This document shows positions 18,941 to 24,873 of a stretch of DNA of 64,000 nucleotides, in pieces. A model generated the notes under the pieces. It saw only the letters and a program-made list of their open reading frames with translations, did not search any database and had not been told where the DNA came from. How positions within the stretch are numbered: the first letter of the stretch is position 1; the number at the start of each line of letters is the position of its first letter. Position numbers and translations under genes: made by a program. This DNA is from Methanococcoides burtonii DSM 6242. GTDB lineage: Archaea; Halobacteriota; Methanosarcinia; Methanosarcinales; Methanosarcinaceae. The DNA is taken from contig NC_007955.1 in NCBI RefSeq assembly GCF_000013725.1, positions 1,829,579 to 1,893,578 of the forward strand. Reading direction: 5' to 3'.

Positions 18941-19978
18941 TTAGGCCATGTAGCCATATCCCACAAATCTCTGTTTTTCATCCAGATTACAGATTATGAA
19001 TCTGTCAGATCCATTGTAAGCCAGTAATTTTGATCCTGAGAGAGTAAGCATACATTCAGCTTCTGTTGTAGTCCTCTTAACTTCTTCTCCGTTGACGAGG
19101 ATCTTTTCCACTCGCATTGGTGCTGACTGCAAACCTACGAAGATATGAGGAACATCTTCTATTGCAAAACCTTTTGAGAAGGGTGTGAAATGACATTTGA
19201 GTGTAAGGTCCTCTGTAACTTCTTCCTTTTGTGAGAGCACAAAACCTCTTTCAACATCCTTTGATTGCACGTTCTTGAGTGCAAGTCCAACTCTTGCACC
19301 CGCTGGTGCAGTTTTTGCATCTACATCATGCAGCTGAATGGAACGGATCTCTATCTGCTTATCAGTTGGGAAAGCTATCAGTTTATCTTTTGCATTGATG
19401 ATTCCCTGATCCACGACACCTAAAACAACACATCCGATACCGGTAACATTGAATGTCTGATCGACAACCACACGTGGGGGAAGTTCGTTCAATTCTTCGA
19501 GCTCTTTATCGACAACCTCGCCAAGATCGAATATCATTTCCTTGAGCTCTTCCATTCCCTCAAAAGATGTTGTGGAAACAGAAATATATTCCCAGTTCTC
19601 AAGAGCTGTTCCTGTTGTTAATTTCGTTATCTTTTCCTTCAGCTCTTCAATGGCAAAAGGATAGCTGGTATCTGATTTTGTCAGAACGATGATACCGTGC
19701 TTATAGCCCAGAAGGTCAAGTGCAATGATACACTCTCCTGAATAAAGATCAAGTCCTTCAGGAGGTATGCACAGAACTGCAATATCTGAAAGGTTTAAAC
19801 CAGCCATCATCGGCTTGATAGCTGTAGGATACCCTGTTGCATCGATAGTTGTCAGAACTTTACCGCTCTTGGCAAAATCATACATTGTAAAATCTGCTAC
19901 GGTTCCTTTCTTCCCTAATTTTGCAGCAAGGGTGGTCTTTCCGCTTTTTTCGCTTCCGATGATAATTATTTTTGTCAT
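18941..19978 (-). CDS. EF-Tu/SelB-like translational GTPase family protein
   Basis: 345 residues: G domain with GSEKSGKTTL (8-17), DATGYPTA in the G3 position and TKSD for G4, then EF-Tu domain 2-like beta barrel (RVVVDQTFNVTGIGCVVLG...) and a domain 3-like end. The G1 and G3 motifs are divergent from EF-1A. It resembles the SelB-like lineage kept by methanogens that lack selenocysteine. The role is unknown. A link to amber decoding has been discussed for such proteins, but nothing here proves it. Confidence 0.7.
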   Translation of the reverse strand: MTKIIIIGSEKSGKTTLAAKLGKKGTVADFTMYDFAKSGKVLTTIDATGYPTAIKPMMAGLNLSDIAVLCIPPEGLDLYSGECIIALDLLGYKHGIIVLTKSDTSYPFAIEELKEKITKLTTGTALENWEYISVSTTSFEGMEELKEMIFDLGEVVDKELEELNELPPRVVVDQTFNVTGIGCVVLGVVDQGIINAKDKLIAFPTDKQIEIRSIQLHDVDAKTAPAGARVGLALKNVQSKDVERGFVLSQKEEVTEDLTLKCHFTPFSKGFAIEDVPHIFVGLQSAPMRVEKILVNGEEVKRTTTEAECMLTLSGSKLLAYNGSDRFIICNLDEKQRFVGYGYMA

Positions 19979-20035: not shown

Positions 20036-21205
20036 TTACCATGTTTCTCCCTTCCACATGGAAAGCGTCTTATCATTGGTACTCTTATTCAGCTTCTTTA
20101 TCTTGACAATAAATTCATCGCCTACCACTTCAGGTTCACTGAAAATAGCATCTATACCTTGCCGTCTTAAATATTCCTTGAACTTTGAAACGGTTTCAAG
20201 ATTTGATAACCTCATCTGAACTTCATCGGCTAAACGGACACCATTTCCGATATTGACGATAGAATCTATCATGGGGTAAAGTATGCTTCTGCCAAGTTGC
20301 AGGCAGCGCTTATCTATATCATCACCGGTCTCTTCCCATTCAACTGCTTGAAAACCTTCGCGCACCACTCTGGAGAACAGATAATCTCTGCCTGCATCAT
20401 TGTAGAACTTGAAAGCATGTTTCAGGTCTGCACAATTGCTTTGCGAACAGGTATATTTTAAAGGTGCTATCTCCATCATGGGATCTTTGATAATAACACC
20501 TTCGTGTTCTATCTTACCAAGCTCCCTGATGATCTCACTTATCCTTAAGGGAGCTTCTTCCTTTGGAAATTCGCCAAAGAGCCTGACCTGTGTGAATCCG
20601 TATTCCTCTGCAAGCTGCCTTCGCTCATGAAGCGGAAGAGGAATGCCACTATGCTTATGTCTGATATCGAAAACGAAAAGTTCAAGGGATTCGACATTGT
20701 AGATCTTCTTTGGGATATAAGGATTGTCAGGACCTACCATCTCGCCGTGGAGCACAAGTTCCGGATGTTCTTCAAAAAAATCAATATTCAAAAACTTCTG
20801 TGCTCTTTCAGTTGAATAGGGGCAGACGTAACCTCCACGGGTTATGGCAATGATCTTCCCGTCAACTGTCACGATACGCACATTAAAACCGTTCATCTTC
20901 TCTTCGACACAGACTGTCTCGACATCCGAAAAGTGAGCTTCTATAGCAGGTTTTAACAACATGGCCCGATGGATCTTTGGAAATCCCATTATAAGTTCAA
21001 AACAGCCGTTCTTTTGCTACAGAACTGATCCGCTGTCAATATGAGAAATAGATGTATCAAAACGAAAAAGATGCTGATGGTCTCCCCAGAGCTGCAAAAG
21101 CTCACGCTTTTGTAATAATTTCTGGAGTTTGGATACGGGCAGGTCCAGATAATCTGCAGCTGCCCTCACATCCAGTCGAATACCATCAGCATCATCAGGT
21201 TTCAT
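20036..21205 (-). CDS. Archaeal RNA ligase (Pab1020/Rnl3 family) with in-frame amber codon
   Basis: From ATG 21205 the frame runs to TAA at 20036 (390 codons) interrupted only by TAG at 21019-21017 (codon 63). The part before TAG (LDVRAAADYLDLPVSKLQKL... ISHIDSGSVL) and after (QKNGCFELIMGFPKIHRAM) together give the N-terminal region and length expected of the circularising archaeal RNA ligases. Nucleotidyltransferase motif I is EEKMNGFNVR, with the Lys at about codon 103; HGEMVGPDNPY, FVFDIR and EGVIIKD are further ligase motifs. If TAG is read as pyrrolysine the product is 389 residues; otherwise ATG 20989 gives a 317-residue truncated form. It follows the CBS gene by 4 bp. Confidence 0.8.
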
Positions 21206-21209
21206 TCTT

Positions 21210-21986
21210 TCACTGCGCAAATGCACTAATGATGTTTCTTCTTGTAATGAACCCTACCATATCTCCTTCAAGGTTCACTACCGGCAAACCACCTATCTTT
21301 TCCTTGAGCATCATTGCTGTAACATCCGACATCAGCGTGTTAGATTGCACCGTCTTGACACCTCTTTTCATAATATCTTCTACAATGAGGTTCTTAATAC
21401 GTGTATCTTGCTGATTTCCAGAAACAATATCTCTGAAAGCACGCATTGATTTAGCGATGTCCTGCTCAGTGACAATGCCTATAAGCTTACCATCCTCAAT
21501 AACAGGGAACCTTCCAATATCTTTATCAAGGATTATGTGCCTGATATGGCTGACCCTGTCCCCGGGGTGTACAGTTATGGGGTCCTTGTTCATGATTTCA
21601 GCAGCATAACCATCGATCTGACTATTGGCTAGCACTTCATTTGGTGTAACCCAGCCAAGAATTTTCTCATTCTCGCTTACAATTATAATACCGCGGTTCT
21701 TTGCCATCAGAGTAAGTGCATCGTCTACATCCATATCCGGCAGGACCTTTACAAAATCATCTGAAACAGCGGTTGCTACATGGAGTGAAGATGCAGGTTT
21801 AGCTCCCTTCTTTCGTGTACCAAGTTCTTTAGTAAGACCTCTCATTGTAAGTATGCCGATGAGCTTATCGTCATGCTTTACCAAAAGGCGGCGTGTCGCC
21901 TTCTTTTCCATCACATCAAGTGCATGAGATATCGTGTCTGCTTTATCAATAGATATCGGTTGTACCATTATGTCCTTCACTTGCAT
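21210..21986 (-). CDS. CBS-domain protein (four CBS motifs)
   Basis: 258 residues: two CBS pairs. Blocks start [18 protein letters not shown], then [33 protein letters not shown] and [16 protein letters not shown]. Such modules bind adenosine nucleotides or SAM and act as energy or ligand sensors. No effector domain is fused. AGAGGTGAGAAGATATG gives a strong start. Last of five tandem CBS genes on the minus strand and 4 bp before the RNA ligase start. Confidence 0.9.
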
Positions 21987-22051
21987 ATCTTCTCACCTCT
22001 TTTATTCGTGATATCAAATCACTAATCTATCACTAGTCTCTCACATATCCA

Positions 22052-22891
22052 TCAAGCTGCTCTCATGATATCTGTTCTGCTGACAATACCGACGATCTCA
22101 TTATTTTCAGCAATAGGAATACCTGTAATATTTTTATCTACCATTATCTTTGCAGCTTTTGTGATATCATCTCCAACATCCAATACAGCGAATATATCAC
22201 TCATTACATCTTCTGCTACAAGAGGAACGGTTTTGATATATCTGTATATTTTCTCCCCACTGGGTTCTGCTCTTCTTGCCATCTTTATATTCTTTGAAGG
22301 AAGTTGTCCCTCATTATCTGTAAGTACATGTAGTGCAAGTTCTCTTGTTGTTATAAATCCAACAGCTTCTCCAGAATCATCTGTAACTATGAGCTTGCTT
22401 ACTTTGTTAATCTCCATTTCATCTACTACATGGTTCAGAGTGTGATGTCTGTGAACAAAAATAGGGTCTGCTGTCATGATCTCACCCAGATTTTTCTTAA
22501 CAGGGAGCTCAGACATGCAGCGAACTACATCCACTCTTGTAACAATGCCCACAAGTTCTCCATTGTTGACCACAGGTATGTTATTGATGTCGTTATCGAC
22601 CATCAATGCCGTTGCTTGGGAAACAGATGCATCTTTATAGATCGTAACAGGGTCTTCTGTCATTATCATCTTTACAGGAACCTTGTCAATAGGCCTTCGT
22701 CTCCACATTGGTTCTGCCTGGGCCAGGCGTCTTCCAAGATCGGATTTGGTAACGATACCTACCATCTTGTTGCCTTCCACGACAACAATTGTGCTTATCT
22801 TATGTCTAAGCATCAATTTCCTTGCATGTGACACAGGCTCTTCTGGTTCCATTACATATACCGGGGAGCTCATGATGTCTGATACATTCAT
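22052..22891 (-). CDS. CBS-domain protein (four CBS motifs)
   Basis: 279 residues, two CBS pairs: MNVSDIMSSPVYVMEPEE, VKMIMTEDPVTIYKDA, LGEIMTADPIFVHRHH and AEDVMSDIFAVLDVGD. The motif GIVTRVDVVR/GIVSRTDIMRAA ends two blocks. AAGGAGGAAGAGATATG is the ribosome-binding site. Fourth gene of the tandem CBS cluster, 65 bp from the next. Confidence 0.9.
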   Translation of the reverse strand: MNVSDIMSSPVYVMEPEEPVSHARKLMLRHKISTIVVVEGNKMVGIVTKSDLGRRLAQAEPMWRRRPIDKVPVKMIMTEDPVTIYKDASVSQATALMVDNDINNIPVVNNGELVGIVTRVDVVRCMSELPVKKNLGEIMTADPIFVHRHHTLNHVVDEMEINKVSKLIVTDDSGEAVGFITTRELALHVLTDNEGQLPSKNIKMARRAEPSGEKIYRYIKTVPLVAEDVMSDIFAVLDVGDDITKAAKIMVDKNITGIPIAENNEIVGIVSRTDIMRAA

Positions 22892-22936
22892 ATCTCTTCC
22901 TCCTTTGTTTGTTAGTTATTCCTGTGGAAAAATAAT

Positions 22937-23884
22937 TCATTCAGCTATTGCTCTTAGGACATCTCTTTCTGTGATTATACCACAAAGCTTTCCATTATCG
23001 ATAATAGGCAGAGATCCAACACCATGTTTAAGCATGAGGCTGCTCGCTTCCCCGAGGTCTGTATCAGAAGTGGTCCATACCACATCCTTTGAGACCAATG
23101 AACTGATAGGAACATCCATTGCTTCGTGGAAATTACCGGTGACCAAATTCTCAAATACCTCCCCGCTACCAAAAAAGTTCATAATGGCCGATGCATTGAC
23201 AACTCCTATGAGTATACCCTTCTTTACAACAGGAAGTCTTCTAAAGTTGTTCTTGACCATCACTTTAGCAGCCTCTCCAATCTTCATATCAGAAGATGCC
23301 TTTTCCACTTTTTTGCTCATGTGACCTGCAATTGACATATTAGTAGGAAGTCCGCTTGCAAAAGTCAAGAAGTCCTTTTCAGTACATATACCACAAACAT
23401 GATCTGTACTATCAACTACAGGTAAGCTCCCTATGTTGTGTTTCAGCATGAGCTCAAAGGCTTCCTTGATATTACCAGTGCTATGAATGGACACTACATG
23501 GGGTTGCATTATTGAACTTATATTAGCGTTGATAGCAGCCAGTAAGTTCCCTTTGTATTTATTTTCGATAAGTTGGCTCTTATCTCCCCCAAGGAAATCG
23601 ATTATGTCAAAAGATGTAATGATACCTTCAATTTTGTTCGTGCCAGCGTTTGTTATAGGGATGTGCCTGAACTTCTTTTCTGTCATTATCTTGATGGCAT
23701 CAATGATCTTTGTTGTAGGCGGGATAGTAATAACATGCTTAGTTGCCACAGACATAATATCCCCTTCATGCTCTGATATCTTCGCATGAAAATCAAAAGC
23801 CCCTCTATTCATCGTTTCATTTGTAGCAAACTGAACAGGATCCTTTTTCTTATTATTCACAGGGCTATTGTTTTGAAGTTTCAT
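22937..23884 (-). CDS. CBS-domain protein with N-terminal extension
   Basis: About 315 residues from ATG 23884, fixed by AAGGAGGATAAAATG; an in-frame codon at 23917 lacks an SD. A Lys/Asn-rich extension of about 35 residues precedes four CBS motifs (GDIMSVATKHVITIPPT, SIMQPHVVSIHST, AGHMSKKVEKASSD, VSKDVVWTTSDTDL). Blocks end GIITERDVLRAIAE. Upstream, GGGCTGT-GGGT-ACAGTCCC (23969-23989) is a small inverted repeat that may be an operator or hairpin. Confidence 0.85.
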   Translation of the reverse strand: MKLQNNSPVNNKKKDPVQFATNETMNRGAFDFHAKISEHEGDIMSVATKHVITIPPTTKIIDAIKIMTEKKFRHIPITNAGTNKIEGIITSFDIIDFLGGDKSQLIENKYKGNLLAAINANISSIMQPHVVSIHSTGNIKEAFELMLKHNIGSLPVVDSTDHVCGICTEKDFLTFASGLPTNMSIAGHMSKKVEKASSDMKIGEAAKVMVKNNFRRLPVVKKGILIGVVNASAIMNFFGSGEVFENLVTGNFHEAMDVPISSLVSKDVVWTTSDTDLGEASSLMLKHGVGSLPIIDNGKLCGIITERDVLRAIAE

Positions 23885-24058
23885 TTTATCCTCCTTATTT
23901 TTTTGAGAATTAGGCATTCGACTGGCGGTACATATTTTGGAATAAACAAAAAGCTATCCAAAAATATTATATGGGCTGTGGGTACAGTCCCAATTGTTTA
24001 ATTATATGGTCTTGATAAATCTGTTTCATTATACTAATTTATAAAGTGGGATCAACAC

Positions 24059-24835
24059 TCATAAAGAAGCGCGGAGTATATCGGTCCTGGATACTATACC
24101 TATTACCTTTCCATCATTAACAACCGTTAGTCTTCCGACATCATAGTGGAGCATTTTTTCAACACACTCTTTTACACTTGTGTCCGATAATACTGTATAG
24201 GCAGGAGTTGACATAATTTTATCAACTGATGGAACATCCTTCGTCTGTGTTTGTTGTTTATCCCCAATGGCTGGCCGGATAAATCCGAATCTTATGATAT
24301 CTCTTATAGTTATCATCCCCTGAAGTTCATCAGCATTGGTGACCACAGGTAGACCGGAATAATTTGATGTAAGCAGGATCGGCCATATTTTTGTAAGAAG
24401 GTCATGCGGGTTACAGCTAATGATATCAGTGGTCATGACATCAGCTGCAACTTTAGTATTTATTCTATTCGATCCGATATTTGCAAGAATATCTGAATTG
24501 CTGAGAATTCCGACTATCTCTCTTTCAGTTTCGGATCTCACTATTGGACAGCGACCGACACCTGATTCAATAATAAGTCTTGCAGCATCCATAATGTCTG
24601 TTTTTGGAGTTATAAGCGGACAATCATGCACAAATCCTCCAATAGTTACATTGGAACGTGTGGATGTGATGTTGAGAATATCCTGATCTTTAAGGATACC
24701 AACCATCTTTCCATTGGCATCAGTTACAGGAAGACCTCTAAGAAAGTGGTCTCTCATTAACTGCCGCGCATGTGTCATGTTATCATGCTCTTTTACACAA
24801 ACAGCATCTTTAGACATAATTTCGTTGACTTTCAT
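24059..24835 (-). CDS. CBS-domain protein (four CBS motifs)
   Basis: 258 residues from ATG 24835 (MKVNEIMSKDAVCVKEHD), set by GGGGGG 7 bases upstream; ATG 24853 is an alternative. Further blocks: IGGFVHDCPLITPKTD, AADVMTTDIISCNPHD, VDKIMSTPAYTVLSDT. Ends GIVSRTDILRASL like its neighbours, pointing to origin by tandem duplication. 38 bp downstream of the 24874 gene stop. Confidence 0.88.
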   Translation of the reverse strand: MKVNEIMSKDAVCVKEHDNMTHARQLMRDHFLRGLPVTDANGKMVGILKDQDILNITSTRSNVTIGGFVHDCPLITPKTDIMDAARLIIESGVGRCPIVRSETEREIVGILSNSDILANIGSNRINTKVAADVMTTDIISCNPHDLLTKIWPILLTSNYSGLPVVTNADELQGMITIRDIIRFGFIRPAIGDKQQTQTKDVPSVDKIMSTPAYTVLSDTSVKECVEKMLHYDVGRLTVVNDGKVIGIVSRTDILRASL

Positions 24836-24873
24836 ATAAAACCCCCCATTCATATGACAGATGAAGAAGTTTC

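Follow-up and report, generated by a model that had tools for sequence, protein, structure and literature searches.

An in-frame TAG as a probable pyrrolysine codon in the RNA ligase gene of Methanococcoides burtonii

The RNA ligase gene of Methanococcoides burtonii DSM 6242, a cold-adapted methanogenic archaeon, contains an in-frame TAG at codon 63, which is very probably a sense codon for pyrrolysine (Pyl), the 22nd amino acid, which is rare and is mainly familiar from the metabolism of methylamines. Its decoding by tRNA-Pyl(CUA) would yield one full-length ligase, in which Tyr63 would have been replaced by Pyl63 through a single base change in the ancestor of the genus. An earlier note on this DNA had suggested a non-methyltransferase pyrrolysine protein, and this is now the best-supported reading, given that the pyl genes are present and that the TAG is common to nine species. 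The ligase is, in this sense, a well-supported further case of a known type, i.e., Pyl within an ordinary protein, the precedents being Thg1 and 'Ca. Methanomethylophilus alvus'. From the sequences, we infer that Pyl is the residue inserted, that most ribosomes read through the codon, and that the enzyme is active. Under the standard code, the annotation of this gene would give a 62-residue fragment and a shortened ligase.

The ligase gene and its family

The window, i.e., the whole stretch of 64,000 nucleotides that was analysed, comes from a single contig, 2,575,032 bases long, on which it occupies positions 1829579-1893578. The main features of the gene are:

20036..21205, minus strand, coding sequence of the RNA ligase (Pab1020/MthRnl type, TIGR01209), giving 389 residues if pyrrolysine is inserted at codon 63
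21017..21019, minus strand, in-frame TAG at codon 63, the proposed pyrrolysine codon, placed by the alignment of relatives
20897..20899, minus strand, motif I Lys at codon 103 (EEKMNG), expected to be the adenylated residue and unchanged across the 29 aligned ligases

The earlier note had described a lone TAG interrupting a frame of 390 codons which has the length and motifs of Pab1020-type RNA ligases, with family-like residues on either side of the TAG, and each of these points was borne out. In translation, the frame shows one TAG, at codon 63, and closes with TAA, and a profile search matched TIGR01209 ('RNA ligase') to residues 20-389 with 375.7 bits, against a cut-off of 136.9, so that the family is continuous through the TAG and covers both of its sides. 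The frame also matches the RNA ligase domain PF09414 and the Pab1020 C-terminal region PF18330 (131.7 bits). Of the solved structures, 2vug (PAB1020) and 5d1o, an 'ATP-dependent RNA ligase' to which the alignment begins at residue 22, come nearest. This is the only ligase of the Pab1020 type in the genome, where PF09414 exceeds its cut-off at one locus, as was also found by the protein search.

Given its sequence, the enzyme is assigned to the Pab1020/MthRnl RNA ligase family, in which the role of the motif I lysine is known from MthRnl (PMC3514331), and its reaction would be ATP-dependent ligation in three steps, as is usual in this family. It shares with the characterised type (TIGR01209, PF09414 plus PF18330) the full-length match, the EEKMNG motif I, the C-terminal domain, and the placement between the CBS and aSelBL genes, whereas position 63 is Tyr, Val, Ile, Gln or Cys in the relatives and TAG in M. 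burtonii.

Distribution and history of the TAG codon

The ligase was searched for in 112 genomes of the family and was found in 102, and the same alignment column is a TAG in nine of the 11 Methanococcoides genomes, whose TAG-sharing ligases diverge down to approximately 70% protein identity. The two TAG-free ligases of the genus have CAG (Gln, in G016) and TGC (Cys, in G017) in this position. The alignment with homologs, which had been proposed at the outset as a means of identifying the residue that replaces the TAG, returned mostly Tyr (TAC/TAT) in the neighbouring genera and Val, Ile or Tyr farther out, and none of the 91 family genomes outside the genus in which the ligase was found has a TAG within an intact copy. 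A nucleotide tree from which the TAG codon had been left out places the CAG and TGC genomes within the group of TAG genomes, with the TAG basal in the genus, and the simplest history is, therefore, one Tyr-to-TAG change in the ancestor of the genus followed by two losses.

A sequencing error or a pseudogene would leave such an interruption, although nothing other than the stop itself points in this direction. Nine species share the TAG, which is thus not a sequencing error, and both the frame and the selection that acts on it are intact, which makes this reading scarcely conceivable.

The agreement of nine genomes in 11 is unexceptional in itself, given that 275 of the 388 other columns of the ligase reach the same level. 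A rough estimate from one pair puts the neutral survival of the TAG codon between the two Methanococcoides clades at 2-17%, so ordinary purifying selection is likely and drift alone is unlikely. The retention of the codon over this long divergence, together with the low neutral survival, would also be expected if Pyl63 had been selected for a specific function, such as an RNA contact, stability or a dimer contact, which is a stronger form of the preferred explanation rather than one that excludes it. This form is quite unlikely, however, considering both the number of columns that are equally conserved and the occupation of the site by Tyr, Val, Ile, Gln and Cys elsewhere. The Gln and Cys replacements also imply that Pyl is not indispensable at site 63.

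Two minor observations were made during this survey. Cys (TGC) at site 63 arose separately in two lineages, represented by G107 (L020) and G017 (L011), and PylS was not found in G107, a genome which is 92% complete. In G073 (genus g12), the ligase (G073:C1:18288-19432) appears broken, with TGA, TAG and TAA stops spread over two overlapping pieces, a possible natural loss of the enzyme.

Decoding machinery and the use of TAG as a terminator

The absence of pylT and pylS from the genome had been named in the earlier note as the result that would overturn its proposal. In fact, pylS, pylB, pylC, pylD and tRNA-Pyl(CUA) are all found in the genome, the four protein genes being intact and clustered together at about 2186-2191 kb, where the tRNA gene, with its CTA anticodon, adjoins pylS. 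PylS is present in all 11 Methanococcoides genomes and in 101 of the 112 genomes of the family. The pylB gene (L032:2122-3363, minus strand) itself ends in TAG, as was previously known (PMC2933860), and read-through would lengthen it by about 40 codons, which overlap pylC in a different frame.

Stop codons were counted with a simple and crude gene caller based on codon usage, in the window and in a further 400 kb of stretches, which together make up 464 kb of the M. burtonii genome. The 346 genes called in the 464 kb end in TAA (169), TGA (168) and TAG (nine, about 3%), and the TAG ends amount to nine in 293 when the 400 kb of stretches are taken separately. Several of these nine calls are read-through genes themselves. 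Partial samples of 80 kb were used for the other genomes, and within the genus they yielded TAG stops in two of the 70 genes of G016 and in none of the 161 genes of G017, G019 and G020 combined. The corresponding counts in neighbouring genera were 12 of 63 in g14 (19%) and seven of 54 in g11, whereas TAG ends were rare also in the g13, g9 and g5 genomes that were sampled. This pattern fits a sequence of events in which gene ends lost the TAG first and the codon was gained as a sense codon afterwards, the order of the two steps being inferred.

A few genes of M. burtonii may nevertheless end in real TAG stops, such as a birA-like gene (L068:3171-4700, plus strand) that ends in TAG TAG and is followed by approximately 186 in-frame codons which resemble a membrane-anchored surface protein. 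The TAGTAG could be either a double stop or the junction of a fusion that carries two Pyl residues side by side.

These data are best explained by the following course of events. Once the TAG had been nearly cleared from the gene ends of Methanococcoides, the change from TAC/TAT (Tyr) to TAG in the ancestor of the genus would have been a tolerable missense rather than a lethal stop. The tRNA-Pyl(CUA) would then decode TAG 63 and produce a full-length ligase with Pyl63, a residue that is predicted to lie in an N-terminal beta-hairpin, remote from the catalytic motifs along the chain, and which would since have been kept about like any ordinary residue, with two replacements, by Gln (one transition) and by Cys.

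Coding potential on both sides of the TAG

The part of the gene that precedes the TAG behaves as coding sequence. By the Nei-Gojobori method, the dN/dS of codons 1-62 is mostly 0.15-0.47, with a few larger values from pairs of closely similar sequences (the highest, 0.85, being found between two near-identical ones), and that of codons 64-389 is about 0.05-0.2. Judging from these ratios, codons 1-62 remain under purifying selection, and codons 20-62 fall inside the family model. An AlphaFold2 model of the ligase, obtained from 29 sequences (mean pLDDT 77.7), has residues 11-62 confidently folded and places residue 63 in a hairpin well N-terminal of the motif I lysine K103. The two features that bear on this region are:

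20990..21025, minus strand, predicted beta-hairpin holding residue 63 (codons 61-72; strands 61-65 and 68-72, pLDDT about 85-91)
20987..20989, minus strand, possible restart ATG after the TAG, present in three of the 11 genomes of the genus

The second of these features raises the question of a split or shortened ligase, in which translation up to the TAG would give a 62-residue peptide, and the ATG at 20989 or a later one would initiate another protein. A restart product was considered because the frame downstream of this ATG, which lies 10 codons past the TAG, is open by itself for 317 aa and holds the catalytic core, including motif I and the C-terminal domain. In eight of the 11 species, on the other hand, the ATG is replaced by Arg or Lys, so a conserved restart at 20989 was excluded, and this start was rejected as unconserved in the genus. 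A later conserved ATG (codon 82, in RAMLL) would remove both the hairpin and the strand that precedes it, and the N-terminal part is homologous to that of intact ligases, besides being under purifying selection and confidently folded in the model. Taken together, these points make a split ligase highly improbable.

Regulation and RNA structure around the TAG

If the TAG were instead a regulatory stop, the output of the ligase would track the supply of pyrrolysine, and RNA ligation would be tied to methylamine status. The retention of the TAG in nine of the 11 species is compatible with this alternative, as is the partial read-through known from a related genus, given that read-through of just 20-30% was reported for UAG reporters in Methanosarcina acetivorans (PMC2933860), so some of the 62-residue product may indeed form. 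A further element in its favour is a stretch upstream of the TAG:

21059..21109, minus strand, codons 33-49, where synonymous differences that separate the two clades of the genus are unusually scarce

In a 12-codon window within this stretch, the fraction of identical codons is 0.92, compared with an average of 0.53, a value that is reached by 26 of 5000 shuffles (uncorrected for the four window sizes tried). The prefix of the ligase is also somewhat slow in the TAG-free genus g11, however, and a link between this constraint and the TAG is thus not established.

The folding at or after the TAG is not significantly above that of shuffled sequences (z from 1.10 to -1.32), and the 81-102 nt pieces following the TAG that were searched for a PYLIS-like structure had no or weak gain over the shuffles (z 0.36, -1.32 and 0.29). 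Of the 30 pairs predicted in the consensus structure around the TAG, only one shows a change on both sides. The TAG has been lost in two sister species, it is scarce as a terminator, and the hisS gene of the same genome, which bears a TAG, would need constant decoding, all of which renders a regulatory stop very unlikely. The earlier note had raised the possibility that the level of the ligase depends on amber decoding, and this may be so, but it was not upheld here, considering that no structure near the TAG clearly beats the shuffles and that Gln and Cys stand at the site in two sisters. More broadly, it is unlikely that Pyl63 was selected for a physical role or that it acts with an upstream cis element, such as the constrained stretch, which would couple ligase output to the pyrrolysine supply, and a special catalytic or regulatory role for this residue is not supported.

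Other genes with an in-frame TAG

The interpretation of TAG 63 as a pyrrolysine codon is accompanied by in-frame TAGs in the family matches of other non-methyltransferase genes. In the 464 kb, the ligase was joined by four such genes:

L067:6710-7945 = G000:C1:2476710-2477945, minus strand, histidyl-tRNA synthetase (hisS), TAG at codon 378 of 411, TIGR00442 over 5-400
L058:18049-19251, plus strand, AhbC (12,18-didecarboxysiroheme deacetylase), TIGR04546 over 2-394, TAG at codon 73
L053:4868-6040, minus strand, GT4-type glycosyltransferase, TAG at codon 62, best match 21-387, below the cut-off of the model
HerA-like ATPase, HerA_C over 290-377, TAG at 350

The strongest side evidence comes from HisRS, given that the TAG, if it were a stop, would drop the last 33 residues of an essential enzyme, within its anticodon-binding domain, where TAG 378 is located. 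This hisS is the only HisRS gene of the genome. Position 378 is Lys (AAG/AAA) in all 10 congeneric genomes, and the hisS TAG is apparently private to M. burtonii and recent. A UvrD-like protein, a large VWA protein and a NosD-like protein are further possible candidates.

Read in this way, the RNA ligase and HisRS genes indicate that a methylamine-linked amino acid has been built into the RNA and translation enzymes of a methanogen, and a cost of losing the pyl genes should therefore be felt even when methylamines are absent. In addition, natural pairs of close orthologues, Pyl/Gln and Pyl/Cys, occur in the genus for a protein where Pyl is not known to be catalytic.

Comparison with known pyrrolysine systems

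The Pyl of the methylamine methyltransferases MtmB, MtbB and MttB is regarded as a catalytic residue. Their TAG is conserved as a trait of the family (PMC2933860), and the ligase resembles them in having an in-frame TAG decoded, as proposed here, by tRNA-Pyl, but differs from them in that its relatives have ordinary residues at the site. A closer precedent is the Thg1 (tRNA-His guanylyltransferase) of Methanosarcina, whose Pyl is presented as neutral evolution in the title of the study (Heinemann 2009, cited in PMC2933860), and which likewise represents an in-frame TAG in a non-methyltransferase enzyme of RNA processing, although the enzyme is another one and the TAG of the ligase spans most of a genus.

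In 'Ca. M. alvus', a low use of TAG stops was described together with 16 additional Pyl candidates, and the TAGs found in major genes were argued to make Pyl decoding essential (PMC4153887). This archaeon is similar in its very low use of TAG stops and in the in-frame TAGs of many genes, but belongs to the distant Methanomassiliicoccales, whereas the host of the ligase is one of the Methanosarcinaceae. The main text of the 2005 and 2013 papers on Pyl prediction does not mention a ligase. Kivenson and colleagues (Science, 2025) reportedly proposed a 'Pyl code' for certain archaea, with every TAG codon being read as Pyl, and their proteomics reportedly covered M. burtonii.

Neighbouring genes

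The genes on either side of the ligase are the following:

18941..19978, minus strand, SelB-like GTPase (aSelBL, once 'EF-Pyl'), next downstream, 57 bases past the ligase
21210..21986, minus strand, CBS-domain protein, next upstream, ending 4 bases before the start of the ligase

In the relatives, aSelBL follows the ligase in 29 of 29 cases, with the CBS gene in front of the ligase in 28 of 29, and this CBS/ligase/aSelBL order had already been noted for the Methanosarcinales, where the ligase was termed a DNA ligase (PMC3037878). A link to Pyl through the adjacent 'EF-Pyl' was considered and rejected, and the adjacency is taken as a coincidence, because the same synteny is found with TAG-free ligases, aSelBL is distributed more widely than the Pyl users (PMC3037878), and the homologue from M. 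mazei is described as binding Cys-tRNA (PMC4329189).

Upstream of the ligase, a same-strand run occupies positions 21210-24853 of the window (minus strand), with genes at 21210, 22052, 22937 and 24059 whose translations resemble CBS-domain proteins, the first of them (21210) being covered by the family scan and the rest being judged from their translations.
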